From positions 310,001 to 374,000 of the forward strand of contig NZ_CP063304.1 of assembly GCF_015159595.1 (NCBI RefSeq): 64,000 nt of DNA. Reading direction: 5' to 3'. The position numbers and the translations under genes are program-made. This DNA is from Blautia liquoris. GTDB lineage: Bacteria; Bacillota; Clostridia; Lachnospirales; Lachnospiraceae. The notes under the pieces were generated by a model. The model saw nothing but the letters and a program-made list of their open reading frames with translations. It was not told the DNA's origin and searched no databases. Below are positions 47,537-64,000 of the stretch, in pieces (positions within the stretch are counted from its first letter, which is position 1; each line of letters opens with the position of its first letter).

Positions 47537-47593
47537 AAAGAAAAGTAATAAAAAAAACCATAATAATTGAGAAGAAAGTTGGGCAGCACCATA

Positions 47594-48982
47594 ATGAAGA
47601 AAATTATCAGACTACAAATTGAAAATCCCAAAAGTTTAGATCCAATATATGGGATTGATACCGTTTCTGGCGATATAATAAATGCATGTTATGATAGACT
47701 TTTTCATTTTGAAAATGATCATTTTGAGCCATTACTGCTTGAAGAATATTTTAGTAATGGAAGAAGTATCTATTGTAAGTTGAAAAAAGAAGTTTTATTT
47801 AGCAATAATAAAGAGTGTACATCTGATCACGTAGTGACCTCGCTGAAAAGATGTATTACTAAGTGTGAAAAAATAAAAACATATATTCATGAAGATATTC
47901 ATACAACAGATATCCAAAGAGTTGATAGCCATGTCTTAAAAATCAATACAAAAATGCAGCTAAAAGATTTTGTCAAAATTTTTTCAAGTAATGCAACATC
48001 CATTGTGAATTTAATTGACTATAACGAAAATTTTTTTAAACGAAATACCTGTGGAACAGGACCCTATGTGTTTTCAAGCTATAAAAATAACACTCTGAGA
48101 CTGATAAAACACTTGAATTGGTGGGGGAAGGAAGAGCTGTTAGATGAAATAGTTATAATTTCAAATTATAATTATGAGATATTAAAAAGGATGTTCCTAG
48201 AGGGTGAGGCAGATATCATGTATGCTCTCCCTTCTGATGTTGGATCATTTATAAATAAGCGTAATATCAGAGTTGAGTATTTCCCCTCTTTAGATACATG
48301 TTGTTTTGTGCTTAATCAAGCATCAGGAAGATTGAGAGATTATGAGCTTCGTAGATTTATTTGTAATATAGTTAACAAAAAAGAGATAGTAGATAGCATT
48401 CACAGGGAAAATATATACGATTTAAACTGTGTGATACCTGCAGGACTTGGGTATAGTTATAATAAATGTAATGGAAGTATATTTGATTCAGGAAAAATGA
48501 TGTGTAAGACAACAAATGATGATAAGCCAATTAAAATTTTAAGTGTCAATGGGCTAAATGACGCTGAAGTTATGTGTCAAAATTTAAAAGAACAATTATA
48601 TAAATATGGAATAAACAGTCATATCTGCTCTCTTGATTTTAACAGTTATTGTGATGAATTTGATAAAGGGAAATTTGATATAGCTTTTCTGTCTTGGGCA
48701 GTTGACATTGTAGATCCGATAGGGTATTTATATGATTTTTACCATTCAAAGGGAGAAGTATCAAGAGCGATTCGATATAACAACAAAAAAATTGATCAGA
48801 TGATTGAGAGTAATAAATCCAACAATTTTGATTCAATTATTCAAAAAGCAGAAAGCGAGCATCTATACATATGGTTATATCAGGGCAACAATCTAAAGAT
48901 ATATAAAAACAGGATTATAAAATTAAAACATTCATTAATGGATGGAGATTATTCTTTCAGACATATACGGGTTAAATCATGA
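47594..48982 (+). CDS. Family 5 extracellular solute-binding protein lacking a signal peptide
   Basis: A 462-residue protein of the oligopeptide/nickel binding-protein fold. It begins almost directly with the mature family motif (IENPKSLDPIYGIDTVSGDII) and contains NTCGTGPYVFSSYKNNTLRLIK and FDIAFLSWAVDIVDPIGYLYDFYHSKG. There is no hydrophobic signal or lipobox; upstream in-frame codons (TTG at 47567) add only nine polar residues. No transporter subunits adjoin it. Base composition is much more AT-rich than the flanking core genes. It may be a cytoplasmic binding protein, or a gene that lost its 5' end. Confidence 0.75.
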   Translation: MKKIIRLQIENPKSLDPIYGIDTVSGDIINACYDRLFHFENDHFEPLLLEEYFSNGRSIYCKLKKEVLFSNNKECTSDHVVTSLKRCITKCEKIKTYIHEDIHTTDIQRVDSHVLKINTKMQLKDFVKIFSSNATSIVNLIDYNENFFKRNTCGTGPYVFSSYKNNTLRLIKHLNWWGKEELLDEIVIISNYNYEILKRMFLEGEADIMYALPSDVGSFINKRNIRVEYFPSLDTCCFVLNQASGRLRDYELRRFICNIVNKKEIVDSIHRENIYDLNCVIPAGLGYSYNKCNGSIFDSGKMMCKTTNDDKPIKILSVNGLNDAEVMCQNLKEQLYKYGINSHICSLDFNSYCDEFDKGKFDIAFLSWAVDIVDPIGYLYDFYHSKGEVSRAIRYNNKKIDQMIESNKSNNFDSIIQKAESEHLYIWLYQGNNLKIYKNRIIKLKHSLMDGDYSFRHIRVKS

Positions 48983-49218: not shown

Positions 49219-50139
49219 TCATGGCTTTGGGGTGTATAAAGAAATGGCATAGAAAATGCCACAGAGAGAATCAATACCGGAAGAATGTCCAATTGCTTCA
49301 AACGCCGGAAGAATATCCTGGACGGAGGCGGCGGAACTAAGATTCATAACAGCCTGACCAAAGTGTCCCCTCAGGGCACATTTCAGAAACTCCTGGCTGA
49401 TGTCGTTTGTATTATCCAGATGTCTTTCCAGTTGTTCTTTTAAGGAACGAGAAAAAGGATGGAGCCATTGGCTGCATAAGATTAGCCCGGCTAAAACTCC
49501 ACAAAGGAAGTCATCCCCGCTGGGCGTCAGACCAATACCCAGTCCCACCAGGCTAACTAATTCAGAAGCGGCATCGCCATAATTGTATTGCTTAAAAAAG
49601 GCAGTGCATTGATTGATCTTTGTCTGAGCAAAAGTTAAAAATAAAAGTGAATCCAAGCTGGAAAAGACTATTCCCTCAGCTGCTGTTTCAGAAAAGATTG
49701 GACGAAAACCATTGAGGTGTGATTCATCTAAAGCCTGTTGTAAAACCGGCACAATTTTATTGGGATAGGTCATCGGTAATAACCTGGTGAATGTTATGAA
49801 GGCATTACGGTAGTTAAAAGTAATGGTTTCTCCAGAAGTGGCGATGTTGATCCCCAAAGCTGTAGTTGTTACCTGTTGTCCAGGTATAACAGGCAGCTTT
49901 TCCATACTGGCTTCATCCAGAGTGGTTATCAGACTGATTGGAGAAATTGGAGAAGCGGTTGCCTGCAGAGCAAGAAGAAAAGAGTCTATCTTTAGATTTA
50001 TTGTTTTGCTATATACCGAATGAACGGTTCCTTTTTTACGGGAAACGAGAATCTTAGCTATGTAATCAGTGGTGTGGGAAATAGCATAAACCATATCTTT
50101 TATGTATCCTTTCGTATAGCCTATCTTATATTTTATCAA
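49219..50139 (-). CDS. allH: DUF2877 protein, oxamate carbamoyltransferase subunit AllH
   Basis: A 306-residue cytoplasmic protein. LVGLGIGLTPSGDDFLCGVLAGL at about residues 191-213 is the diagnostic DUF2877 signature. E. coli AllH (YlbF) is a DUF2877 protein that with AllF and AllG forms the enzyme splitting oxalurate phosphorolytically to oxamate and carbamoyl phosphate. Here the gene is transcribed away from the rest of the cluster, with the NCS1 permease gene starting 181 nt away in the opposite direction, so a shared divergent regulatory region is likely. AGGATACAT rather than a strong AGGAGG precedes the ATG. Confidence 0.87.
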   Translation of the reverse strand: MIKYKIGYTKGYIKDMVYAISHTTDYIAKILVSRKKGTVHSVYSKTINLKIDSFLLALQATASPISPISLITTLDEASMEKLPVIPGQQVTTTALGINIATSGETITFNYRNAFITFTRLLPMTYPNKIVPVLQQALDESHLNGFRPIFSETAAEGIVFSSLDSLLFLTFAQTKINQCTAFFKQYNYGDAASELVSLVGLGIGLTPSGDDFLCGVLAGLILCSQWLHPFSRSLKEQLERHLDNTNDISQEFLKCALRGHFGQAVMNLSSAASVQDILPAFEAIGHSSGIDSLCGIFYAISLYTPKP

Positions 50140-50320: not shown

Positions 50321-51808
50321 GTGGAAAATCATGATTTTCAAATTAGTGATGAGGATTTAAACAATTTCCGTGAACGAGGTTACAATGACGATTTACTGCC
50401 AAAACGTCAATCCGAAAGAAATATGGGAATTCGGAACTATTTTACACTGTGGATGGGATCGATCCATAACATTCCCAACTATGCAGCAGTAGGAGGTTTT
50501 TTATTCCTGGGACTCTCCCCAATTAATGTTGTTTTTGCATTAATATTAAGTGCTGTTGTTGTTGCAGTATTTTTGTCTCTTAACGGAGTGGCCGGGTCTA
50601 AGTATGGAATACCATTTTCCATACATTTAAGGTCAACTTACGGAGCACTTGGAGCAAAGTTACCTGGTTTTCTGAGGGGCTGTGTGGCGGCAATTGCATG
50701 GTTTGGCCTGCAAAACTATACTGGGTCCCAGGCTTTATTAATTTTAATTGGAAAACTGTGGCCTGGTTTCTTACGTCTGGGGGGAGAGACTAAGTTTTTT
50801 GGAATCAGTATTCCCGGATTGATTTCCTTTACAATATTTTGGGCCATCAATGTTTTAATTGGATTGGGCGGAGGCAAGATACTTAATCGGTTTACTGCAA
50901 TTTTAAGCCCGCTGATTTACATAGTTTTTGGTGGTATGGCAATTTGGGCAGTCAATGCAGCCGGAGGAATCGGTGCTATCTTTTCGTATCGCGCTGTTGA
51001 GACAAGCAGTAGTGTACCACCAGTTCTTATTTATCTGATGATTATTAACTCGGTTCTTGCAGTCTGGGCAGCACCTGGAGCAAGTGTGGCGGATTTCACT
51101 CAGAATGCAAAATCAACCAAGGCTCAGATGATCGGGCAGATGTTAAGTATGGTAGTTGGATATGCAATATTTGCATTGTTTAGTGTTGTGATCTTAATCG
51201 GAGGATCCATTCGCTATGGTACACAGGAATGGAATGTTCTTAACATTATTGAGCAGTGGGATAATCTGCCGGCTGTAATCCTGACGATGGCTGTTTTTCT
51301 TTTGACTACAATTTCCACCAATGCCACAGGTAATATTATCCCCGCCGGCTATCAGATACTTGCTTTATTGCCGAAAAAAATTAATTATCGAAAAGGTGTT
51401 ATTATTGCAGGGATTATCAGTTTTGTTATTATGCCATGGAAACTGATGGAACGTTCCGACAGTATCTATGTGTTTTTAAATGCAATCGGGGCAATACTGG
51501 GACCGGTAGCCGGGGTCATGATTGCACATTTCTTTTTCAGCGAAAAGCAAGAACTGGACCTGAACCAGTTATATATGGATAAAACAACAGATAATACGGA
51601 AAATCCCTATGTGGGAATAAATCGGAATTCGTATATCGCAACTATTATAGCCGTAGTATTGTGTTTAAGCGGTCAGTTTATACCAGTATTATCGGGGATA
51701 TCGGATTACCTATGGCTGGTCGGCTTCTTCTTTGCCTTTGTACTGTATCTGATTTTAGATAAGCTATGGCCAGTGAAACGAACAGGTGTAACCAGCAACA
51801 AAAAATAA
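50321..51808 (+). CDS. NCS1-family permease, probable allantoin transporter
   Basis: A 495-residue integral membrane protein of the nucleobase:cation symporter-1 family with about 12 membrane helices. Family features include FTLWMGSIHNIPNYAAVGGF near residue 42, GVAGSKYGIPFSIHLRSTYGALGAKLPG near 90 and WFGLQNYTGSQAL near 127. The location upstream of allantoinase suggests allantoin as substrate, but cytosine or hydantoin specificity is not excluded by sequence. The start is GTG with AAAGGAGG 6 nt upstream. It leads the plus-strand part of the cluster. Confidence 0.88.
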   Translation: MENHDFQISDEDLNNFRERGYNDDLLPKRQSERNMGIRNYFTLWMGSIHNIPNYAAVGGFLFLGLSPINVVFALILSAVVVAVFLSLNGVAGSKYGIPFSIHLRSTYGALGAKLPGFLRGCVAAIAWFGLQNYTGSQALLILIGKLWPGFLRLGGETKFFGISIPGLISFTIFWAINVLIGLGGGKILNRFTAILSPLIYIVFGGMAIWAVNAAGGIGAIFSYRAVETSSSVPPVLIYLMIINSVLAVWAAPGASVADFTQNAKSTKAQMIGQMLSMVVGYAIFALFSVVILIGGSIRYGTQEWNVLNIIEQWDNLPAVILTMAVFLLTTISTNATGNIIPAGYQILALLPKKINYRKGVIIAGIISFVIMPWKLMERSDSIYVFLNAIGAILGPVAGVMIAHFFFSEKQELDLNQLYMDKTTDNTENPYVGINRNSYIATIIAVVLCLSGQFIPVLSGISDYLWLVGFFFAFVLYLILDKLWPVKRTGVTSNKK

Positions 51809-51831: not shown

Positions 51832-53205
51832 ATGAGCTATGATTTAATTATTAAAAACGGGTTGGTGATCTTAGAAGGGGGTGAAGTAAAAACCGATATC
51901 GGTGTAAAGGATGGGATTATTACCGGTATTGGACATGGTTTAACAGATGGTGAAACAATTCTTGATGCAACTGGGCTGATCGTAAGCCCAGGTATGGTAG
52001 ATGCTCATGTACACATTACAGAGCCGGGAGGAAGCTATCGTGACCAGTGGGAGGGGTATGAAACCGGTACGGCGGCCTGTGCAAAAGGTGGGGTGACGTC
52101 TTTTGTAGAGATGCCTTTAAATCAGATTCCGGCCACTACAGATGGAAAAACTCTTGAGATCAAGTACAATGCCGGAAAAGGGAAACTAAAGGTTGATGTG
52201 GCCTCCTTTGGCGGCCTGGTACCTTTTAATCTGGATAACGGCGGAATCAAGGAACAGCATGAAGGTGGTGTTGCAGCATATAAATGTTTCATGGCAACCT
52301 GTGGAAACCGAGATATTGATTTTGATTTTATGAATGTGGATGACTATTCGCTTTATGAAGGAATGCGCCAAATTGCCAAAACCGGAAAAGTACTGGCGAT
52401 TCATGCAGAAAATGCTGCTCTTACAGATACTCTGGGAGATTTAGCTTATAAAAGTGGAGAGACATCTTTAAAATCTTATGTTGAAAGCCGCCCTGTATTT
52501 ACAGAAGTTGAGGCAATTCGCAGAGCAATCTTCTTTGCGAAAGAAACAGGATGTCGGATTCATATCTGCCATGTGACCTGCCCGGAAGGTGTTGCGGAAG
52601 TGACGAAGGCAAGAGCAGAAGGTGTTTGCGTTACCTGTGAAACATGTCCACATTATTTGTATTTTAATACAGATGAGTTGGATGCTATCGGGCAGGTAAC
52701 AAAATGTTCACCACCAATCCGCGATAAAGAGAATCAGAAGGAACTGTGGAAAAAGGTGCTGCACGGAGAAGTGGATTTTGTTGTTTCCGATCATTCTCCT
52801 TGTACGCCAGATTTAAAAGAAAGTGAAAATGCTTTTGAGGCTTGGGGTGGAATTTCAGCGGTTCAAAATAGTGTGGATGTTTTCTATGATGAAGCAGTTC
52901 AAAAAAGAGGGATGCCGCTAACGCAATTTGCGGATCTTATTGCAGCAAATCCGGCTGACTTATATAAGCTCAATCAAAAAGGAAGAATTAGTATTGGTAA
53001 GGACGGAGATTTCGTGTTAATTAAACCGGATGCTCCGTATACTCTGAAGGCAGAGGATCTGGAATATCGTAATAAGATCAGTGCCTATGTAGGACGCAAG
53101 ATCGGTGCTCAGGTGGTTCAAACGATTTTGAGGGGTAAGGTTATTTATAATAAGGACAGCGGCGTAACGAAAGAATTCTCCGGTAACTACATAAAAGTAA
53201 AATAA
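51832..53205 (+). CDS. allB: Allantoinase
   Basis: A 457-residue metal-dependent amidohydrolase that opens the allantoin ring to give allantoate. Metal ligands are visible: DAHVHITEPG (residues about 58-67), the carboxylated-lysine position in VAAYKCFMA near 149, IHAEN near 186, HICHVT near 243 and VSDHSPCTPD near 313. Ring-opening residues and the neighbours (allE, allD, allC) select allantoinase over dihydroorotase or dihydropyrimidinase. It lies 23 nt behind the permease gene with AGGAGG before the ATG. Confidence 0.93.
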   Translation: MSYDLIIKNGLVILEGGEVKTDIGVKDGIITGIGHGLTDGETILDATGLIVSPGMVDAHVHITEPGGSYRDQWEGYETGTAACAKGGVTSFVEMPLNQIPATTDGKTLEIKYNAGKGKLKVDVASFGGLVPFNLDNGGIKEQHEGGVAAYKCFMATCGNRDIDFDFMNVDDYSLYEGMRQIAKTGKVLAIHAENAALTDTLGDLAYKSGETSLKSYVESRPVFTEVEAIRRAIFFAKETGCRIHICHVTCPEGVAEVTKARAEGVCVTCETCPHYLYFNTDELDAIGQVTKCSPPIRDKENQKELWKKVLHGEVDFVVSDHSPCTPDLKESENAFEAWGGISAVQNSVDVFYDEAVQKRGMPLTQFADLIAANPADLYKLNQKGRISIGKDGDFVLIKPDAPYTLKAEDLEYRNKISAYVGRKIGAQVVQTILRGKVIYNKDSGVTKEFSGNYIKVK

Positions 53206-53328: not shown

Positions 53329-54177
53329 TTAAAGCCTTTTTTTGATGAAACAAAGGGTTGATTCCAAAAGCCGCACGGTATCAGGATGATCTGGTTGACG
53401 GTCAAAATCATGGATTATTCCTGATACTACAAAACGTTTCGGCTGATACTTTTTACACAGCTCAAGGAATTCTGCATAAGGCACATCTGGATCACTGGTA
53501 CTATGAGCACAAAATAACGGGCAAGGCAGCTGCTGATATGCTCTTAAAGAATACTGCAGAAAGAAATCTTTTTCTCTGCCTTGATAAAAAAGGGATCGCC
53601 ATAGTCCCGTTTGCCGAGCATATACATAAGCACTGTAATGAGTATCCAGACTGCCTGATCCATGTATTTCGGATGGCAGGGATTTGAGACAGGATTTATC
53701 GACAGGCGGGAATGAGCAGTAATATGATGTGGGACTGTCAAACCAGCCGTCACTTACAAAACCATACCCATAATAGGAGATAATCCCATTTGGCGGGTTC
53801 AGTAGTCTGTTTCCAGATGCAGCTATGAGGCACAGATAAGCTCCGGCAGAACGCCCCCATAGAAAATAGGGGAGCCTTTCTTTCGTATATGCCTGTGGCC
53901 TCTTTATGTAATCGTTTACGGAGTCGATAACATCCTCAAGAATCATGGAAATCCTGGCGGCAGGAGCAAGAGGATAATCAAAGGCGATAATGGTATATCC
54001 AGCTTTTGTAAGGATCTGCAGATGAGGCTGTGGCAAGTCATCTCTGCTGCCATATAACAGACCACCACCATGAAAATATAGAATACAGGCAGTTTGTCTT
54101 ATTTTTGGATCACAGTAGATGGTGGCATGTTTTAAATAAGGGGTTTCACTTAACAAAAGCTTATATTGTTCCAGCAT
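53329..54177 (-). CDS. Alpha/beta hydrolase (hormone-sensitive-lipase-like esterase)
   Basis: A 282-residue cytoplasmic hydrolase. The oxyanion-hole motif HGGGLLYGS lies near residues 35-43, the nucleophile elbow WGRSAGAYLC near 107 (serine in G-R-S-A-G), the acidic residue in HSTSDPDVPYAEFLEL near 226 and the histidine in GIIHDFDR near 254. The triad is complete. It sits inside the allantoin cluster on the opposite strand, between allB and allE, so a role in ureide metabolism is possible but not shown. GGAGAG precedes the ATG. Confidence 0.85.
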   Translation of the reverse strand: MLEQYKLLLSETPYLKHATIYCDPKIRQTACILYFHGGGLLYGSRDDLPQPHLQILTKAGYTIIAFDYPLAPAARISMILEDVIDSVNDYIKRPQAYTKERLPYFLWGRSAGAYLCLIAASGNRLLNPPNGIISYYGYGFVSDGWFDSPTSYYCSFPPVDKSCLKSLPSEIHGSGSLDTHYSAYVYARQTGLWRSLFYQGREKDFFLQYSLRAYQQLPCPLFCAHSTSDPDVPYAEFLELCKKYQPKRFVVSGIIHDFDRQPDHPDTVRLLESTLCFIKKRL

Positions 54178-54378: not shown

Positions 54379-55167
54379 ATGAGTTATTTAAATGGACAAA
54401 CAGGTTACAGAGAAGATTTACTGGATACACGTTCTATCGTAAAAAAGGAAAATTATGTTTTGATTGAGCCTGATGGAATTGTCAAAAATGCTATTCCCGG
54501 ATACGAGAATTGTGATGTAACAATTCTCGGTTCACCGGAACTGGGTGCTTCTTTTGCAGATTATTTGATTACCGTAAATAAAGGCGGTATGAATTCTGGT
54601 TTTGGCGGAGCGGGTCTGGAATCTTTTCTCTATGTTTTGGAAGGAGAAGTTACTGTCAAAAATGCGGATAAGGAGGCAGTACTGACAGGTGGAGGATATA
54701 TTTATTCTTCTGCGGGCAATCTGGTATCTTTTGTGAACACTGGTAATGAACCTGCTAAGATTTTCGGATATAAGCGCAGGTATGAGGAGATAGAAGGGTT
54801 CTGCGCTCATACGGTTGTTGGAAATGCCAAAGACCTTCCATGGGTTCCATACGAAGGAATGGAAAATTGTTATGTGAAAGATTTTCTTCCGGCAGCCGGA
54901 GATTTTGGATTCGATATGAATTTCCATATTCTAAAATTCCATCCGGGTGCATCGCACGGATATATTGAGACCCACGTACAGGAGCATGGAGCCCTGATTC
55001 TGACTGGCAAAGCTATGTACAGATTAGATCAGGACTGGGTTCCGGTAAAGAAAGGAGATTACATCTTTATGGATGCGTATTGTCCTCAGGCTTGTTACGG
55101 TGTGGGTAAAGATGAGGATCTGACCTATCTCTATTCCAAAGATTGTAACAGAGATGTTAAATTATAA
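54379..55167 (+). CDS. allE: (S)-ureidoglycine aminohydrolase
   Basis: A 262-residue bicupin that converts (S)-ureidoglycine, formed by AllC, to (S)-ureidoglycolate with release of ammonia. The N-terminus YLNGQTGYREDLLDTRSIVK and the C-terminal block HGYIETHVQEHGALILTGKAMYRLD (about 191-215, with the His/Glu Mn ligands) closely follow E. coli AllE in order and length (about 261 residues), including the terminal YSKDCNRDV. It heads the allE-allD-allFG run, separated from allD by 25 nt. A ribosome binding site AAAGAAAGGA precedes the ATG. Confidence 0.95.
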   Translation: MSYLNGQTGYREDLLDTRSIVKKENYVLIEPDGIVKNAIPGYENCDVTILGSPELGASFADYLITVNKGGMNSGFGGAGLESFLYVLEGEVTVKNADKEAVLTGGGYIYSSAGNLVSFVNTGNEPAKIFGYKRRYEEIEGFCAHTVVGNAKDLPWVPYEGMENCYVKDFLPAAGDFGFDMNFHILKFHPGASHGYIETHVQEHGALILTGKAMYRLDQDWVPVKKGDYIFMDAYCPQACYGVGKDEDLTYLYSKDCNRDVKL

Positions 55168-55192: not shown

Positions 55193-56245
55193 ATGAAACT
55201 TTCAAGAGCAGAGCTGAAAAGTCTGATGAAAAACAAACTGATGAGAGCCGGCCTTAAAGAGGAACATGCAGAAATTACAGCCGAAATTCTGACATGGTCA
55301 GATGAACGGGGATACCATTCCCACGGAGCTGTTCGGGTGGAGTACTACAGTGAAAGAATCTCAAAAGGAGGTATTACGATAGAGCCAAATTTCCAATTCA
55401 AAGAAACAGGTCCCTGTTCAGCAATCTTTGAAGGAGACAATGGCAGTGGGTATGTTGCTGCCAAGTTAGCTATGGATAAAGCAATCGAAATGGCTAAGAA
55501 GAACGGAATTGCAGTTGTAGGAATACGCAATATCTCCCACAGTGGGTCGATTGGTTATTATACCGAAATGGCGGCGAAAAAGAATCTTGCTGCAATTTCT
55601 TTTTGTCAGTCAGACCCGATGGCTGTACCTGTAGGCGGATCAGAGCCCTATTACGGTACCAACCCGATTTCTTTTGCAGCCCCTACTGCAGATGGCAGGA
55701 CCGTTGTCTTTGATATGGCCACAACCGTTCAGGCGTGGGGCAAGATTCTGGATAAGCGCTCCCGGGGTGAGTCTATCCCGAATACGTGGGCAGTAGATGC
55801 TAAAGGGAATCCGGTAACAGATCCGAACCTTGTGAATGCACTGCTTCCTATGGCCGGAGCCAAAGGCTACGGACTAATGATGATGGTGGATGTATTTTCC
55901 GGGATTCTCCTGGGTGTTCCTTTTGGGAAACACGTTAGTTCCATGTATCATGACTGTTCCAAAGGCCGGGAACTTGGACAGATGCATATTGTTATAGATC
56001 CGGCCCGATTTGTGGGGATCGAGGAGTTTAAAAAGAATATGTCCCAATGCTGTGATGAACTAAACTCCATAACTCCGGCAGATGGATATGACAAGGTGTA
56101 TTATCCGGGTGAGCGGGCAGAACTTCGAAAAGAAAAAGCATATGCCTCAGGTGGTATTGAAATTGTTGATGAAATATACGAATATTTAAAAAGTGATGAT
56201 ATTCATTTTAACAGATATGATCATAAGAACAGATTTGCGGATTAA
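55193..56245 (+). CDS. allD: Ureidoglycolate dehydrogenase (NAD)
   Basis: A 350-residue member of the malate/L-sulfolactate/ureidoglycolate dehydrogenase family, oxidising (S)-ureidoglycolate to oxalurate. Visible are WSDERGYHSHGAVRVEYY near residue 31 with the catalytic histidine, GIRNISHSGSIGYYTEMA near 108, YGTNPISFAAP near 150 and AKGYGLMMMVDVFSGILLG near 222. The length equals E. coli AllD. It is preceded by GGAGG and followed after 12 nt by the allF-allG fusion, whose product consumes oxalurate. Confidence 0.95.
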   Translation: MKLSRAELKSLMKNKLMRAGLKEEHAEITAEILTWSDERGYHSHGAVRVEYYSERISKGGITIEPNFQFKETGPCSAIFEGDNGSGYVAAKLAMDKAIEMAKKNGIAVVGIRNISHSGSIGYYTEMAAKKNLAAISFCQSDPMAVPVGGSEPYYGTNPISFAAPTADGRTVVFDMATTVQAWGKILDKRSRGESIPNTWAVDAKGNPVTDPNLVNALLPMAGAKGYGLMMMVDVFSGILLGVPFGKHVSSMYHDCSKGRELGQMHIVIDPARFVGIEEFKKNMSQCCDELNSITPADGYDKVYYPGERAELRKEKAYASGGIEIVDEIYEYLKSDDIHFNRYDHKNRFAD

Positions 56246-56257
56246 GGAGAAAAAAAT

Positions 56258-59200
56258 ATGTTAAAAACGCTTGTAAAGAAAGGCAGTTATCATGATTCTG
56301 TAGTATTGATGCTTTTGACAAACCACATTGCCGCAATTAAAGGGGTTAAGACAGTTTCAATTATGATGGCAACGCCTGCGAATAAGGATATCTTTAAGCA
56401 GAGCGGCCTGGATACTGAAGAATTAATGGCAGCTACTGCAAATGACATGGTTGTTGTAGCGGATGTAGATGATGATAGTCTGTTGGATACCATTATGTCA
56501 GAAGTAGATCTGTTTTTTCAGAATCAGTCCGCAAAGAGTGCAGATAAAAAGAGCAGTAAAAGTGTAAAGTCCTGGGATAAAGCACTTGAAAACCTTCCCA
56601 ATGCAAATCTTGCAGTTATATCTATTCCGGGAGCATATGCGGCATTAGAAGCAGACCGTGCCCTTGATGAGGGAATGAATGTATTTATGTTCAGCGATAA
56701 TGTGACGATTGAGGATGAAAAAAAGCTAAAAGAAAAAGCCCATGAAAAAGGTTTGGTTGTTATGGGACCAGACTGTGGTACCGGAATTATTCAAGGGGTT
56801 CCTGTTGCATTTACCAATAACGTTGCACCCGGTCCTATTGGGATCATTGGTGCATCGGGAACAGGAATTCAGGAACTGACTACGATTATTGACCGCCTGG
56901 GTGAAGGCGTAACAAATGCCATTGGAACAGGAGGCCGTGACCTTTCGGCGAAGGTTGGCGGAATTACGATGATGGACATAATCAATGCCATGGAAAGTGA
57001 TGAGCATGTGAAAGTCCTGATTGTCATATCAAAACCACCACAAAAAGCAGTGCGGGAAAAAATTTCAGCTCGGCTGAGTATTTGTAAAAAGCCTGTTATT
57101 ACGTTATTCCTGGGAGAAAAACCAGAATATCACGAAGAAAATTTTTATCATGCCTATACACTGGATGAAGCAGCTCGTCTGGCCGTTAGTCTTGTCCGCA
57201 AAGAAGCAGTCAAAGAGGGTATGGTAAATGTTGACAATTCCCAGTTCTATTGTGCTGATGAGAAGAAGACAATTAAAGCATATTATTCCGGCGGTACTCT
57301 TGCCGGAGAAGCAGCAATGCTGATTAAAGATGCTTTGCAGATGCGGATTCCACCACAAAAAGCAGAAGGGTATATGCTTAAGACAGCAGGACATATTGTA
57401 GTTGACCTGGGAGATGACGTTTATACACAGGGAAAACCACATCCCATGATTGATCCGGCAAAACGGATTGAATGTATGCAGGAAGCAGTAGATGATGAAT
57501 CAACAGGGGTGGTTCTTTTAGATATCATGCTAGGCTATGGTTCTCATGAGGATATGGCAGGTGCGTTGATTCCCACAATTAAGAAGCTTCAGGAGAAGGC
57601 TACTGCAGAAGGCAGAAAAGTATTTTTCATTGCGACAGTATGTGGAACCAGAAGAGATTTTCAGGGATATGATGAAGCTGTCAGTAAATTAACTAATGCA
57701 GGGGTGATTGTCTGTGAGACAAATAAACTGGCTGTGCGTACCGCAATCCAGGCTATCGGCCTTGATTTTTCTGATCCAGAAAAAGAAATTCGGGCAAAGG
57801 AGGTAAAAAAAGTAACTGCGGGTCAGACTTCAGAAAAGTTACTGCAGATGTTATCCGGGAAACCAAGGATTATTAATCTGGGACTGAAAAGCTTTGCAGA
57901 AGTAGCAGAAAAGTTTGGCTGTGAAACAATACAGTATGACTGGACGCCCCCGGCAGGCGGAAATGTTGAGTTAATTAAAACATTAAGCTTTTTGCGTCAT
58001 TATGAGGGATTTGACATTGATGAGGCCAACCGCAAAGTAGTTGCCAAAATAGTATCCGGCCAGCCAGTTATTAAAGATGTGGCGGCGGCAAAAACAGTCA
58101 TCAAGGAATTGGAAAAAGGTAAAGTGATTCTTCATGCCGGCCCCCCTATTGCATATCGTGATATGCCGGATACGGTACAGGGATCTTGCGTTGGGGCAGT
58201 GCTTTTTGAAGAGTGGGCCGATAATGAAGATGATGCAAGAAGATTATTAGAATCCGGTGAAGTTACATTTATTCCCTGCCATCATGTCAAGGCTGTGGGA
58301 CCCATGGGGGGAATTACTACTGCCAATATGGCCGTTTTTGTTGTGGAAAATGAAACGGATGGAAATGAAGCTTATTGTACATTGAATGAAGGTATCGGCA
58401 AGGTTCTTCGCTTTGGTGCATATTCAAAAGAGGTCGTTGAGCGGCTTCGCTGGATGAGAGATGTGCTGGGGCCAACACTTGGAAAAGCAATTAGATTATT
58501 AGGCGGAATCAGTGTTAATCCGATTGTTGCAAAAGCCATTGCAATGGGTGATGAATTCCATCAGAGAAATATCGCCGCTTCGCTGGCTTTTTTGAAAGAG
58601 GTGGCACCAACCATTGTGAAAATGGACATGGATGAAAAACAACGTGGCGATGTTATCCAATTTTTATCGGATACAGATCAGTTCTTCCTGAATATTATGA
58701 TGGCGTCAGGCAAAGCGGTTATGGATGGAGCCCGGATGGTAACCGAAGGAACAATTGTAACTGCAATGTGTCGTAATGGCGTGGAGTTCGGGATTCGCAT
58801 TGCAGGTATGGGAGATGAATGGTTTACCGGTCCGGTTAATACTCCTTCGGGGTTGTACTTTACCGGATATGACGGAGAGGATGCCTGCCCGGATATTGGC
58901 GACAGCTCTATAACAGAAACTTTAGGTGTTGGCGGAATGGCAATGATCGCGGCACCGGCTGTTACCCGATTTGTTGGAGCGGGAGGGTATGAAGATGCCC
59001 TCCGAACCAGTACAGAAATGACGGAAATCACAATTGATAGGAATCCAAACTTTATTATTCCAAACTGGAGCTTTAAAGGCACATGTCTTGGAATTGATGC
59101 TAGACTTGTTGTTGAAAAAGGAATAACACCGGTTATTAATACCGGAATTGCACATAAAATTGCCGGTTACGGACAGATTGGGGCAGGTACGGTTCATCCT

Positions 59201-59263
59201 CCATTGGAATGCTTTGAAAAGGCAGTCCGGGCATATGCAGAGAAACTCGGGTTTAGTCTGTAA
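56258..59263 (+). CDS. allFG: Fused AllF-AllG: FdrA and DUF1116 subunits of oxamate carbamoyltransferase
   Basis: A 1001-residue protein joining two subunits that are separate in E. coli. Residues 1 to about 515 are FdrA/AllF, an acyl-CoA synthetase-like protein (MGPDCGTGIIQGVPVAF near 168, GIIGASGTGIQEL near 196, GYGSHEDMAGALIPTI near 425). From about 535 to the end is DUF1116/AllG (KPRIINLGLKSFAEVAEKF, GPMGGITTANMAVFVVEN, GDEWFTGPVNTPSGLYF, GIAHKIAGYGQIGAGTVHPP). With AllH the complex performs oxalurate plus phosphate to oxamate plus carbamoyl phosphate. There is no frameshift or stop at the junction. AAGGAG precedes the ATG. Confidence 0.92.
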   Translation: MLKTLVKKGSYHDSVVLMLLTNHIAAIKGVKTVSIMMATPANKDIFKQSGLDTEELMAATANDMVVVADVDDDSLLDTIMSEVDLFFQNQSAKSADKKSSKSVKSWDKALENLPNANLAVISIPGAYAALEADRALDEGMNVFMFSDNVTIEDEKKLKEKAHEKGLVVMGPDCGTGIIQGVPVAFTNNVAPGPIGIIGASGTGIQELTTIIDRLGEGVTNAIGTGGRDLSAKVGGITMMDIINAMESDEHVKVLIVISKPPQKAVREKISARLSICKKPVITLFLGEKPEYHEENFYHAYTLDEAARLAVSLVRKEAVKEGMVNVDNSQFYCADEKKTIKAYYSGGTLAGEAAMLIKDALQMRIPPQKAEGYMLKTAGHIVVDLGDDVYTQGKPHPMIDPAKRIECMQEAVDDESTGVVLLDIMLGYGSHEDMAGALIPTIKKLQEKATAEGRKVFFIATVCGTRRDFQGYDEAVSKLTNAGVIVCETNKLAVRTAIQAIGLDFSDPEKEIRAKEVKKVTAGQTSEKLLQMLSGKPRIINLGLKSFAEVAEKFGCETIQYDWTPPAGGNVELIKTLSFLRHYEGFDIDEANRKVVAKIVSGQPVIKDVAAAKTVIKELEKGKVILHAGPPIAYRDMPDTVQGSCVGAVLFEEWADNEDDARRLLESGEVTFIPCHHVKAVGPMGGITTANMAVFVVENETDGNEAYCTLNEGIGKVLRFGAYSKEVVERLRWMRDVLGPTLGKAIRLLGGISVNPIVAKAIAMGDEFHQRNIAASLAFLKEVAPTIVKMDMDEKQRGDVIQFLSDTDQFFLNIMMASGKAVMDGARMVTEGTIVTAMCRNGVEFGIRIAGMGDEWFTGPVNTPSGLYFTGYDGEDACPDIGDSSITETLGVGGMAMIAAPAVTRFVGAGGYEDALRTSTEMTEITIDRNPNFIIPNWSFKGTCLGIDARLVVEKGITPVINTGIAHKIAGYGQIGAGTVHPPLECFEKAVRAYAEKLGFSL

Positions 59264-59370
59264 CAAAAACAGTGTGAAGGGGTGCGAATGCAATGAGTCT
59301 ATAATCTCTTTACATAGTGGGACTAGTAAGTATCTGGGCAATCTGACACATACATCTTGGGAGTTGGAAA

Positions 59371-60981
59371 ATGAATATACCAGTTAATTTATTCATGTGG
59401 ATTATGGCATTTCTGCCAATCATTGTTCTATTGGTTTTAATGATGAAATTTCATTGGGGTGCAACGGAAGCAGCCCCAGTGGGACTTTTGATTACAATTA
59501 TTACCGGTGTCTTTTTTTATAAGGCGGATATTCGGTTAATTGCTTCTGAAAGTGCAAAAGGAATTTGGAATGCATTGATTATTATATTAATTGTGTGGAC
59601 CGCAATTTTAATGTATCAGGTAGGAGACGAGGCCAGGGCATTTTTGGTAATACGTAACGGAATGCGCAAATTATTGCCGAATGAGCTGCTATTAATATTG
59701 GCAATGGGATGGATTTTTGAAAGTTTCTTACAGGGAATCACAGGTTTTGGCGTTCCGGTAGCTGTGGGTGCTCCACTGCTGATTGGAATTGGTGTAAAAC
59801 CTATGTGGGCGGTTATTATTCCTTTGCTCGGACAAGCCTGGGGCAACACCTTTGGGACTTTGGGGGCGGCATGGGATTCTCTTGCGATGGGTACCAATCT
59901 GATTCCGGGAAGCGGCGAATATCTCATGACTGCTTTATGGGCAGGCGTGTTTATCTGGATTTGGAACGTAATTGGAGGGCTTGCCACCTGCTGGTTTTAC
60001 GGCAAAGGCAGAGCCTTAAAAAAGGGTTTTGCAGCAGTTCTTATTCTGTCCGTAATCCAAGGCGGCGGAGAACTTTTACTGACCCAGATCAACACCACAA
60101 TATCATGTTTTGTACCAGCATGTATCTCTTTGATTGTAATTTTAATCCTTGGCAGGACAAAATGGTACCGGGAAGAATGGAGTCTTAAGGATAGCCCCAT
60201 TATGAACCGTGACTATGCTTCACAGGGAGGGGAGGAGGCTCCTTTGGACATGAGTCTTATCCAGGCGTTTGTTCCTTATTTCCTGCTTTCTTTCATTACT
60301 TTGGCAGTGTTGTTGATAAAACCAGTTTACAATTTTTTGGGACAAGTTGAATTTGGCTTATCTTTCCCTAAAACAGTGACCGGTTATGGCCATGTTAATG
60401 AGGCATATGAGAGTTTTTCACCACTGACTCCTTTTAATCATGCCAGTATGTTCTTGCTTGCTTCGTCATTAATTGGACTGGTATATTATAAAAAACATGG
60501 CTGGATCAAAAAGGGCGGTGCTCAAAGGATATTTGTTAAATCCATATCGATGACAATGCCTTCAGGAATCGCAGTGATATGTCTGGTTATTATGTCGAAG
60601 ATAATGGATGGAACCGGTCAGACAATTGTACTGGCAAATGGAATAGTCAGCGTCCTTGGAAGAATCTATACTGCACTGGCGCCTTTTGTGGGATTTTTAG
60701 GGACCTTTATGACTGGAAGCACTATGAGTTCCAACATTTTATTTGGAGGATTCCAGATGACCACTGCAAACCTCCTGCAAGTTGATCCTTCACAAATTAT
60801 GGGTGCGCAGACAGCCGGCGCGACCATCGGCAGTGCCATCAGTCCCAGCAAGATTATTCTGGGGACAACAACAGCAAGCATTCTTGGCAGTGAAGGTGAT
60901 ATTATGAAAAAAATTCTGCTTATCACGCTTCCGGCCACTATTCTGATTGGATTGATTCTGTTTGTAATTACAATCATATGA
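59371..60981 (+). CDS. LctP (L-lactate permease) family transporter
   Basis: A 536-residue polytopic membrane protein with about 12-14 helices. Typical LctP features are WIFESFLQGITGFGVPVAVGAPLLIGIGVKP (about 113-143, key G-I-T-G-F-G-V-P), LLGQAWGNTFGTLGAAWDSL near 151 and the C-terminal AGATIGSAISPSKIILGTTT region. LctP proteins move lactate, glycolate and similar short 2-hydroxy acids. Located between allFG and allC, it could move oxamate, glyoxylate or glycolate; oxamate resembles lactate most closely among the pathway products. The direction of transport is not known. GGGAG precedes the ATG. Confidence 0.87.
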   Translation: MNIPVNLFMWIMAFLPIIVLLVLMMKFHWGATEAAPVGLLITIITGVFFYKADIRLIASESAKGIWNALIIILIVWTAILMYQVGDEARAFLVIRNGMRKLLPNELLLILAMGWIFESFLQGITGFGVPVAVGAPLLIGIGVKPMWAVIIPLLGQAWGNTFGTLGAAWDSLAMGTNLIPGSGEYLMTALWAGVFIWIWNVIGGLATCWFYGKGRALKKGFAAVLILSVIQGGGELLLTQINTTISCFVPACISLIVILILGRTKWYREEWSLKDSPIMNRDYASQGGEEAPLDMSLIQAFVPYFLLSFITLAVLLIKPVYNFLGQVEFGLSFPKTVTGYGHVNEAYESFSPLTPFNHASMFLLASSLIGLVYYKKHGWIKKGGAQRIFVKSISMTMPSGIAVICLVIMSKIMDGTGQTIVLANGIVSVLGRIYTALAPFVGFLGTFMTGSTMSSNILFGGFQMTTANLLQVDPSQIMGAQTAGATIGSAISPSKIILGTTTASILGSEGDIMKKILLITLPATILIGLILFVITII

Positions 60982-61005
60982 TACAAAAACACAGGAGAAT
61001 ACAGG

Positions 61006-61221
61006 ATGGAACATAACAGTTTTTTTCATACTAAGGAAGGTTCGCTTACCTTGGCTTTTGTTGTAATTATGGTCGCTTTTGTTATAATTATGCTAGGTCT
61101 AAATATAGCAAATGATGTAATATGTCTGATTGGGTTCGGATTGGCTCTTTGCGGAATGCTCTATTCGCCGACCGATGTATATATTTTAAAACCATTAAAA
61201 AGATGTTGGGGTCAAAAGTAA
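61006..61221 (+). CDS. Small two-helix membrane protein
   Basis: A 71-residue protein with two transmembrane segments (residues about 15-35 and 38-53) and a short cytoplasmic basic end (LKPLKRCWGQK). I do not recognise the family. It starts 24 nt after the LctP-type transporter stop, with AGGAG-like sequence before the ATG, so it is co-transcribed and may be a small partner of that transporter. Confidence 0.65.
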   Translation: MEHNSFFHTKEGSLTLAFVVIMVAFVIIMLGLNIANDVICLIGFGLALCGMLYSPTDVYILKPLKRCWGQK

Positions 61222-61230
61222 TTTTGCCTC

Positions 61231-61277
61231 CATGATACACGGATTACTCCGCACTTTGTGCTCGCGCAACCCAGGTA
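61231..61277 (-). repeat. Structured repeat element, copy D (helix III only, with terminal repeats)
   Basis: On the minus strand, this short element matches the right end of copy A: ATGATACACGGATTACTCCG at 61231-61250 against ATGATACCACGGATTGCTCC in copy A's reverse complement. The helix III loop region reads GCAC-TTT-GTGC, where A has GCCC/GGGC and C has GCGC/GCGC. It ends with GGTATC at 61272-61277, so it keeps both ends and lacks helices I and II. It lies between the small membrane protein and allC. Confidence 0.72.
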
Positions 61278-61314
61278 TCTTTAAAAATAAATAATAGAAA
61301 AAGAGGATGAGTGT

Positions 61315-62556
61315 ATGGCAATAGAAGAAATTGTTGGGAGAATAGCCGAAGATCTGGAACATTTAAAGCAATATACAGCTACTCAAGGAGAGGGATGTAC
61401 GAGACTTCCCTTTACCAAAGAAGCACAAGGAGCAGTGGAGTTCCTAAAAAGTACTATGCAAGAAGCGGGATTGTGTGTAACAGAGGATGCTGCCGGAAAT
61501 GTCATTGGCGTTTTGGAGGGCGTAGACTCGGAAGCACCCTGTGTGATGATGGGATCCCATTATGATTCTGTTGTAAATGGCGGTGATTTCGATGGAGTTG
61601 CAGGAATTGTATGTGCGATTGAAGTTGCAAGACAGTTAAAGGAAAAAGAAATTGTTCCACAACGTAATTTTGTAGTTGTAGGTTTTTGTGATGAAGAAGG
61701 AATGCGTTTTGGGACTGGATATTTTGGCTCCGGTGCAATTTTAGGCAATCGCGATGTTGCGTACTGTAAGCGATTTAAAGATGTCAATGGGGTATCCATT
61801 TACGATGCCATGAATAGCTATGGTCTGGATCCCGAAAAGATCGAGGAAGCAAAATGGCCAAAAGGCTCCATTGGATGTTTTCTGGAAGCACATATTGAAC
61901 AAGGACCCGTTCTGGATGCCATGGGTATAGAAATCGGCCTTGTTGATTGCATTGTTGGAATCCAGAGACATATGGTTACCGTTCATGGAAGAGCAGACCA
62001 TGCAGGTACAACACCTATGGATATGCGGATAGATGCTGTTGAAGCAGCTGCAAAAGTAATTTCAAAAATACCTGACTGGGCCAGAGAAAAGGCGGATGGA
62101 ACCGTTGCTACGATAGGATATATTAATACCGTTCCTGGAGGAGTAAATATAGTTCCGGAAAAATGTGAATTTACTGTGGACATCCGTTCTAAGAACAATG
62201 ATAATATTAATGATATTAGTAAACGAATGGAAGCTGCCCTGGAGAGGGAAGTAAAGGCTATCGGCGGAAGCTTCGAGATTAAAAACACGTTAACGATTAC
62301 ATCGGTAGACTTGTCTAAAGATATGCTGAAGATTATGGAAGAAAGCTGTAAAGATCATCAATATAGCTACAAATATCTTCCAAGCGGAGCAGGTCATGAT
62401 GCCCTGGAAATAGGGCAGGTGATTCCCACAGCAATGATTTTTGTACCAAGTGAAGGGGGAAGAAGCCATTGCCCAGTTGAATTCACCAAATACAGCGATT
62501 TTGCAAAAGCAGCAACTGTTATGACGGATCTGGCCATAACATTGTTGGAAAAATAA
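61315..62556 (+). CDS. allC: Allantoate amidohydrolase
   Basis: A 413-residue dimetal M20-family amidase that hydrolyses allantoate to (S)-ureidoglycine, CO2 and ammonia. Metal ligands are visible in GSHYDSVVNGGDFDG (residues about 81-95), the catalytic glutamate pair in CDEEGMRFG near 125, EAHIEQGPVLD near 190, HAGTTPMDMRIDAVEA in the dimerisation domain near 227, and GAGHDALEIG near 356. Length and motifs match the AllC/hydantoinase-carbamoylase family; the neighbours select AllC. AAGAGG precedes the ATG. Confidence 0.93.
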   Translation: MAIEEIVGRIAEDLEHLKQYTATQGEGCTRLPFTKEAQGAVEFLKSTMQEAGLCVTEDAAGNVIGVLEGVDSEAPCVMMGSHYDSVVNGGDFDGVAGIVCAIEVARQLKEKEIVPQRNFVVVGFCDEEGMRFGTGYFGSGAILGNRDVAYCKRFKDVNGVSIYDAMNSYGLDPEKIEEAKWPKGSIGCFLEAHIEQGPVLDAMGIEIGLVDCIVGIQRHMVTVHGRADHAGTTPMDMRIDAVEAAAKVISKIPDWAREKADGTVATIGYINTVPGGVNIVPEKCEFTVDIRSKNNDNINDISKRMEAALEREVKAIGGSFEIKNTLTITSVDLSKDMLKIMEESCKDHQYSYKYLPSGAGHDALEIGQVIPTAMIFVPSEGGRSHCPVEFTKYSDFAKAATVMTDLAITLLEK

Positions 62557-62671: not shown

Positions 62672-64000
62672 ATGGGATTTACGGTAGAAGAACTCCTTAA
62701 AATTGAGGAAGTAAAAAATCTGTCTGTAATCTGCGGACAAGATGGACTTAAAAATGAAATAAAAGGTGTCACTATTATTGAAGCTCCTGATATTGCTAAG
62801 TTTATCAATGGAGGGGAGTTGCTGCTGACCGGATTATTTGCTTTTAAAACCTGTAGTGTAGATGAATACAAAGACTTTCTTCGGGAATTGGGAAAAAAAG
62901 AGATCAGTGGTCTGGCTTTAAAAAGGGGCAGAACAGTAAAAGAGGCAGATGTTAAAATTGAACTGCTCAAAGAATTTGCCCGGGATAACCATATACCATT
63001 AATTGAAGTTCCTTTTGAACTGTCTTTTCAGGTTATAATTGGTCTGGTTATGGAACATCTGTTTAGTGATGAAGTTACTCAGCTGAAGTACTACAAAACA
63101 ACCCATGACAATTTTTCAGCATTGACCTTGTCAAATGGATTTAACGAGAATAAAATTCGAGACATCTTGGGGCTGTTAGATAAGATGATTTGTAATCCGG
63201 TATCACTTTATGATCAATATATGTCTTGTTATGAGACAACAGCAGGTGAAAAAAATCAAAGACTAAAGATTGCTGCTGATGCCACGAAGTATGATCCTGG
63301 AATTTTAACTAATTATATTTATTTGAAGCAGGAAGATGAACATAATCGGTATATTGTTGAAATTAACCTGAATGTGGGGCTCCGGATGTATCTGGTGGTG
63401 ACAGAGATGATGTCAACATTTAGTCTGATGGATTGTATTGCATTAGAAAATGCTATTATCGCACTTCAATATGAGTTTTCAAGAATATTCGCTGTTTCAG
63501 AGCTGGAAAAGAAGTTTCAAAATGATCTTCTGCATAATATTTTGAGCGGTAATATAGAATCAATAGAAGAACTGAAGAAGAGTTCGAGCCTTCTAGATGT
63601 CAATATTGATGGCTATTATCGTGTGGTTGTATTTGGCGTAACAAATGAAAAAAGCTCTCGCAAAGATACGATTAATGAAAAGATGCACCACATTGATTTG
63701 CTGGAAGAAACAGTTGCCCATAAGCTTCCGAAAAGCAAGGTATACAGGGATCTGGATAAGATTGTAGTTGTCATGGAAGTTAACTCTGATTCCTCACAGA
63801 TTGAATATCGGGAAGAGTTGAAGGATATCCTGAAGCAGATTCAGGCGTTTATGACTGTCCAAAATAAATATCTGAAGGTAAAAGCCGGGGTGGGAAGAAT
63901 TGTACAAGGGATACTACAATTGCCCAAAACCTATAAAGAGGCAAATGATGCCTTTTTGTTTGTCGATATTGCCGGTGACATAGTGGGAGAAAGTGCCGTG
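62672..64000 (+). CDS. PucR-family transcriptional regulator (3' end outside window)
   Basis: 443 residues are visible and the frame runs off the right edge. The N-terminal PucR purine-catabolism domain (FTVEELLKIEEVKNLSVICG, VTIIEAPDIAKFINGGELLLTG) spans about 1-125, and a middle GGDEF-like region leads to VKAGVGRIVQGILQLPKTYKEANDAF near 420, typical just before the C-terminal helix-turn-helix. An extended -10 box (TGGTATAAT) at 62609-62617 and GGTGGAG lie upstream. PucR proteins control purine/ureide catabolism, so it is the natural regulator of the allantoin cluster. Confidence 0.9.
   Translation, partial: MGFTVEELLKIEEVKNLSVICGQDGLKNEIKGVTIIEAPDIAKFINGGELLLTGLFAFKTCSVDEYKDFLRELGKKEISGLALKRGRTVKEADVKIELLKEFARDNHIPLIEVPFELSFQVIIGLVMEHLFSDEVTQLKYYKTTHDNFSALTLSNGFNENKIRDILGLLDKMICNPVSLYDQYMSCYETTAGEKNQRLKIAADATKYDPGILTNYIYLKQEDEHNRYIVEINLNVGLRMYLVVTEMMSTFSLMDCIALENAIIALQYEFSRIFAVSELEKKFQNDLLHNILSGNIESIEELKKSSSLLDVNIDGYYRVVVFGVTNEKSSRKDTINEKMHHIDLLEETVAHKLPKSKVYRDLDKIVVVMEVNSDSSQIEYREELKDILKQIQAFMTVQNKYLKVKAGVGRIVQGILQLPKTYKEANDAFLFVDIAGDIVGESAV

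Follow-up and report, generated by a model that had tools for sequence, protein, structure and literature searches.

Since the 1960s, allantoin fermentation has been known to yield oxamate as an end product. Oxamate is isosteric with lactate and pyruvate, and L-lactate dehydrogenase is its classical target. As a strong acid that is fully ionized at neutral pH, it needs a carrier to leave the cell, and we know of no further use to which it is put. E. coli converts 21 mM allantoin to 16.6 mM oxamate, which is not consumed, and oxamate is an effective inhibitor of lactate dehydrogenase (PMC8550087). The enzyme that produces it, oxamic transcarbamylase, is AllFGH, whose genes received their names as late as 2024 (PMC11326118). 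No oxamate exporter is named in the allantoin literature that we searched, nor did we find there any prior link of allantoin to a lactate permease. The stretch of Blautia liquoris DNA analyzed here, 64,000 nucleotides long and called the window below, holds an allantoin cluster for which a preliminary description had proposed that an LctP-family permease and a 71-residue partner export oxamate.

Results

All three subunits of AllFGH are encoded in the window. The oxamate-forming gene is a fusion of AllF and AllG, oxamate carbamoyltransferase subunits, 1001 residues long (56258..59263, plus strand; AllG PF06545, 323 bits; FdrA PRK06091, 706 bits), and AllH, the third subunit, is encoded divergently from it (49219..50139, minus strand; PF11392 AllH, 83 bits). 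Between them, on the plus strand, lie genes for an NCS1 allantoin permease for uptake (50321..51808; NF008476, 799 bits), the allantoinase AllB (51832..53205; NF005960, 746 bits), the ureidoglycine aminohydrolase AllE (54379..55167; TIGR03214, 331 bits), and AllD, the ureidoglycolate dehydrogenase that makes oxalurate (55193..56245; TIGR03175, 579 bits), all four scoring over the model cut-offs. The fusion is followed on the same strand by the LctP-family permease and the small membrane protein described below, then by an AllC-type allantoate amidohydrolase (61315..62556; NF006771, 455 bits, over cut-off) and a PucR-type regulator that runs off the window (62672..64000; PF07905, 88 bits). The window's NCS1 permease and AllB are of the E. 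coli type, the versions of its relatives being only about 26% and 33% identical. A divergent alpha/beta hydrolase next to AllE (53329-54177, minus strand) is kept in nearly all clusters that combine allantoin genes with LctP, at 46-63% identity, and is missing from the E. coli locus. Just upstream of AllH is a gene for a nickel/peptide-type ABC solute-binding protein (47567-48982).

We found no terminator-like site on the plus strand in the gaps at 59264-59370, 60982-61005, and 61222-61314, so it is plausible that the permease, the small protein, and the flanking genes share one transcript. The last of these gaps, ahead of AllC, contains CCGCACTTTGTGCTC; a palindrome resembling it occurs in L090, which lacks the small-protein gene.

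The host genome (3.5 Mb, one contig) gives no match to AllA (PF04115), and hence no glyoxylate branch was found. Among 30 cluster genomes, AllA is likewise missing from 25, with weak matches of 30-38 bits in the other 5. Oxamate, not glycolate, is therefore the expected carbon end product. AllD in the window, a carbamate kinase encoded elsewhere in the genome, and the lack of an AllA match together place the host on the oxamate branch. The single ArcC carbamate kinase over cut-off lies 1.4 Mb away (C1:1763274), beside a purine-type permease, and the genome encodes one L-lactate dehydrogenase (L-LDH equivalog).

The candidate oxamate exporter is a 536-residue protein (59371..60981, plus strand) that matches Pfam Lactate_perm (PF02652) with an E value of 1.3e-63 and 216 bits, as compared to a gathering score of 27. 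The match covers positions 4-521 of the 522-position profile, which bears out the earlier assignment of an LctP-type permease. On the NCBIfam model TIGR00795 lctP, the permease scores 208.9 bits, below the subfamily cut-off of 341. No second LctP was found in the host genome. A sequence search of the PDB returned nothing to an E value of 1, so that by sequence no solved structure can be recognized as related to this transporter family.

By its phylogeny, the permease is a member of a distinct, allantoin-specific LctP clade. The 54 cluster permeases form a single group with support of 100/99 and a stem 2.6 changes per site in length. The sister group consists of three LctPs of unrelated context (L191-L193), whose neighborhoods give no clue to substrate. 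E. coli LldP and GlcA are distant, with 21-22% identity to clade members. Within the clade, the permeases of Pasteurellaceae (L054, L055, L056, and L058) nest inside the Bacillota set. The Pasteurellaceae also have the small-protein gene with the permease, and the two genes therefore appear to have moved between phyla together, as a cassette.

All 54 clade members carry changes at sites that are fixed in canonical LctPs. All 23 of the canonical LctPs aligned have a glutamate at 121, ahead of the GxxGFG motif; in its place, every clade member (54/54) and every sister sequence (3/3) has Q121. Other clade-wide fixed changes are D104 to N, R106 to L, and E243 to T, and new acidic residues appear at E117 and D169, while the glycine-rich GFG motif is retained. 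Judged from the alignment, the charge pattern of the clade is remodeled relative to canonical LctPs, and these changes may set the coupling or the substrate. The AlphaFold model of the permease adopts the IT-superfamily fold, with Q121 directly preceding a helix break. The top 37 structural matches to this predicted model are whole-chain matches to that superfamily (VIA Z about 12-22 over 361-434 residues), among them NaS1 (Z 21.8), a model of MleN (Z 21.3, 420 residues, rmsd 4.3), and TRAP SiaQM (Z 16.3).

The association of the permease with the oxamate branch was examined by scanning 84,980 species genomes, which yielded 53 loci with relatives of the permease. All 53 lie in oxamate-branch clusters. 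AllG is upstream in 45; the other 8 end at a contig edge within about 1.2 kb, and 3 of these show carbamate kinase before the contig ends. AllC is downstream in all except L070 and four loci that end first. The usual gene order is AllE, AllD, AllFG, carbamate kinase, LctP, small protein, and AllC. Carbamate kinase thus separates AllFG from LctP in nearly all relatives and is missing from this position in the window (59264-59370) and in L047, so that the direct succession of oxamate-forming gene and permease noted earlier holds for the window and not for most of its relatives.

Sampling of genomes irrespective of the permease shows that the association is confined to one form of the enzyme. AllG occurs in 19 of 392 genomes of the order, 7 with fused AllFG and 12 with the unfused form. 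All 7 fused genomes carry the clade permease, which adjoins AllFG in the window; in the other six it lies downstream of carbamate kinase, at a distance of about 1 kb from AllFG. No LctP is found near any of the 12 unfused AllG genes. The difference gives a Fisher p of 2e-5, and the co-presence in 7 of 7, given 50 genomes with an LctP of any kind, a p of 4e-7, both without correction for kinship. True AllD scores above cut-off in 6 of 382 genomes, all within the fused set. A sample of the phylum (398 genomes) contains 60 AllG genomes, in which full-length fusions occur only in the window and in G703, which also has the clade permease and the small protein; LctP is absent from the 39 other AllG loci that were read. 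The association of the permease with fused AllFG clusters is not due to chance, and the permease is the partner of one pathway lineage rather than of allFGH in general. The proposed co-occurrence of LctP with allFG consequently stands for all 7 fused clusters and 53 of 53 relatives and fails for the unfused AllFGH clusters and the E. coli locus. Absence of LctP from every other allFGH cluster, which had been named as evidence against export, is not what the 7 fused clusters display. The second, unfused AllF/AllG/AllH system is widespread in Bacillota (L075-L087, L128-L166). Its clusters mostly lack AllC, AllD, and AllE, often have PucR-like regulators, and probably serve other substrates.

The small protein (61006..61221, plus strand), a candidate accessory subunit of the permease, begins 24 nt past the permease stop. 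Its 71 residues include two hydrophobic segments, and two helices are predicted, in agreement with the two-helix protein described previously. Neither Pfam nor NCBIfam contains a model that matches it. Its homologues comprise 54 sequences of 62-83 residues (the window and 53 loci, a few being re-fetched copies of the same genome), each 3′ of a clade LctP at a distance of 9-379 nt from the permease stop (median 22.5). The median dN/dS is 0.09 over 184 pairs, none of which exceeds 0.5. The homologues and the low dN/dS indicate a real gene under purifying selection. Conserved residues include F6, G12, T15, F18, F25, G43, and P55, and those in helix 1 recur at every three or four positions; a test for helical-face periodicity was not significant (p 0.07).

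Three known families were considered and set aside. A PDB search with the small-protein profile gave matches at chance level only, to complex I ND3. In a Pfam scan, DUF3040 was matched by 35 of 36 sequences, with a best E value of 5e-4 and the window protein below cut-off, which we judge to be an artifact of the hydrophobic segments. The DctQ-type TRAP small subunits gave no family match of useful score, and the window protein has two helices only.

The small protein follows the clade permease closely. A profile search of the 392 order genomes returned six strong matches, all 3′ of a clade permease, and no further match below an E value of 0.001, though dozens of these genomes carry other LctPs; one of them, G335, has three LctPs and one small protein. 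In L070, the small protein is kept 3′ of LctP although AllC is gone, and a stem-loop sequence and a GntR-like regulator lie downstream. This order, together with the exclusivity to the clade permease, favors the small protein as the permease's partner. Two genomes have the permease without the small protein (L059/G802 and L090/G381), and the subunit is therefore not strictly needed. L059 is the deepest permease branch under midpoint rooting, and the sister of L090 has the small protein; the gene would either have been gained after the L059 split and lost in L090 or been lost twice. Positions changed in these two permeases are scattered, with no interface readable. An AlphaFold pseudo-fusion of permease and small protein, in which the stop was read through as a residue, again showed an IT-superfamily fold and gave a pTM of 0.76 as compared to 0.80 for the permease alone, with a linker pLDDT of about 50 and docking without confidence.

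Discussion

Oxamate export is the best-supported reading of the permease, and we hold it with moderate confidence. We infer oxamate as the substrate, the outward direction, the coupling ion, and the subunit role of the small protein. In the proposed mechanism, allantoin would enter through the NCS1 permease and be converted to oxalurate by AllB, AllC, AllE, and AllD. Phosphorolysis by AllFGH would then give carbamoyl phosphate, worth one ATP via carbamate kinase, and oxamate, one of which would be formed per allantoin. A dedicated, remodeled elevator transporter of the LctP type would carry the oxamate out of the cell, and this efflux would pull the transcarbamylase step forward and keep lactate dehydrogenase free. 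The two-helix protein would pack on the permease in the membrane, stabilizing it or tuning its gating. A fuller version, which we offer tentatively, is a two-component oxamate efflux system in which an LctP-fold permease with rewired coupling residues works with a two-helix subunit, the outward gradient possibly conserves energy, and the cassette has moved between Bacillota and Pasteurellaceae.

Some observations speak against export: the characterized members of the LctP family, LldP and GlcA, are importers, and E. coli forms oxamate with no LctP in its allantoin locus, LldP and GlcA being encoded elsewhere. The main rival is that the permease imports a pathway intermediate, be it allantoate, ureidoglycolate, or oxalurate, with or without releasing oxamate in return. 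Besides the uptake role of characterized relatives, it draws on the E121-to-Q change (54/54) and the new E117 and D169, which suggest altered coupling or substrate, and on the appearance among the structural matches of a model of MleN, a malate/lactate antiporter. We nevertheless regard import or exchange as unlikely. The cluster already encodes a permease for allantoin and all enzymes from allantoin onward, the ureido acids are much bigger than lactate or glycolate, and AllFGH clusters without the upstream enzymes would need such uptake, yet they do not have the clade permease. Export of another acid, for example, glycolate from glyoxylate reduction as a redox sink for the NADH of AllD, would fit a family for which glycolate is an established substrate (GlcA and LldP, by their annotation). 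We find this quite improbable, as AllA, and with it an enzymatic route to glyoxylate, was not found in the host or in most of the cluster genomes (25 of 30), and the allantoin clade is far from GlcA. That an ordinary lactate/pyruvate permease has landed in the operon by chance would account for the Lactate_perm match but can hardly be reconciled with a score under the TIGR00795 lctP cut-off, a separate clade in which 54/54 members share changes at canonical fixed sites, and a gene context conserved across phyla.

Oxamate export by the permease does not depend on the role of the small protein, which is probably an accessory subunit. The alternative, compatible with an oxamate-exporting permease, is that this peptide acts in the membrane on its own or partners AllC or the regulator. 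It adjoins AllC in most loci, is nearer AllC than LctP in L034 and L041, and is missing from two permease genomes. This alternative seems doubtful, given that L070 keeps the order of LctP and small protein without AllC, that the small protein is the only membrane protein other than the permease in the AllE-to-AllC gene run, and that conservation recurs along helix 1, albeit short of significance.

If oxamate export is correct, a dedicated exporter would complete the oxamate branch of the allantoin pathway and explain how self-poisoning of lactate dehydrogenase by oxamate is avoided. Oxamate release by gut bacteria would also become genetically accessible, and the LctP transporter family would gain a type of small subunit.

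Comparison with Known Systems

The predicted fold of the permease is common to the IT-superfamily elevators (NaS1, NaDC, VcINDY, ArsB, TRAP M subunits, and MleN). Sequence identity to these is 7-16% and their substrates differ, so that function cannot be read from the common fold. The gene arrangement resembles that of TRAP transporters (DctQ/SiaQ) and of others with a small partner, in which a small membrane protein accompanies an IT-fold permease. DctQ is larger, with roughly four helices and at least 150 residues; the small protein here comprises two helices in 62-83 residues and gave no sequence match. With the E. coli allantoin locus (allA, allW-allB, allE-allC-allD, fdrA-ylbE-ylbF-ybcF), the window shares the oxamate-branch enzymes; that locus differs in encoding AllA, with the glyoxylate branch, in keeping AllF and AllG unfused, and in containing no LctP. 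The lactate/glycolate:H+ symporters LldP and GlcA of E. coli share Lactate_perm over their full length and the GFG motif with the permease, which differs from them in its identity of 21-22%, its separate clade, its residue changes, its small partner gene, and its allantoin context.
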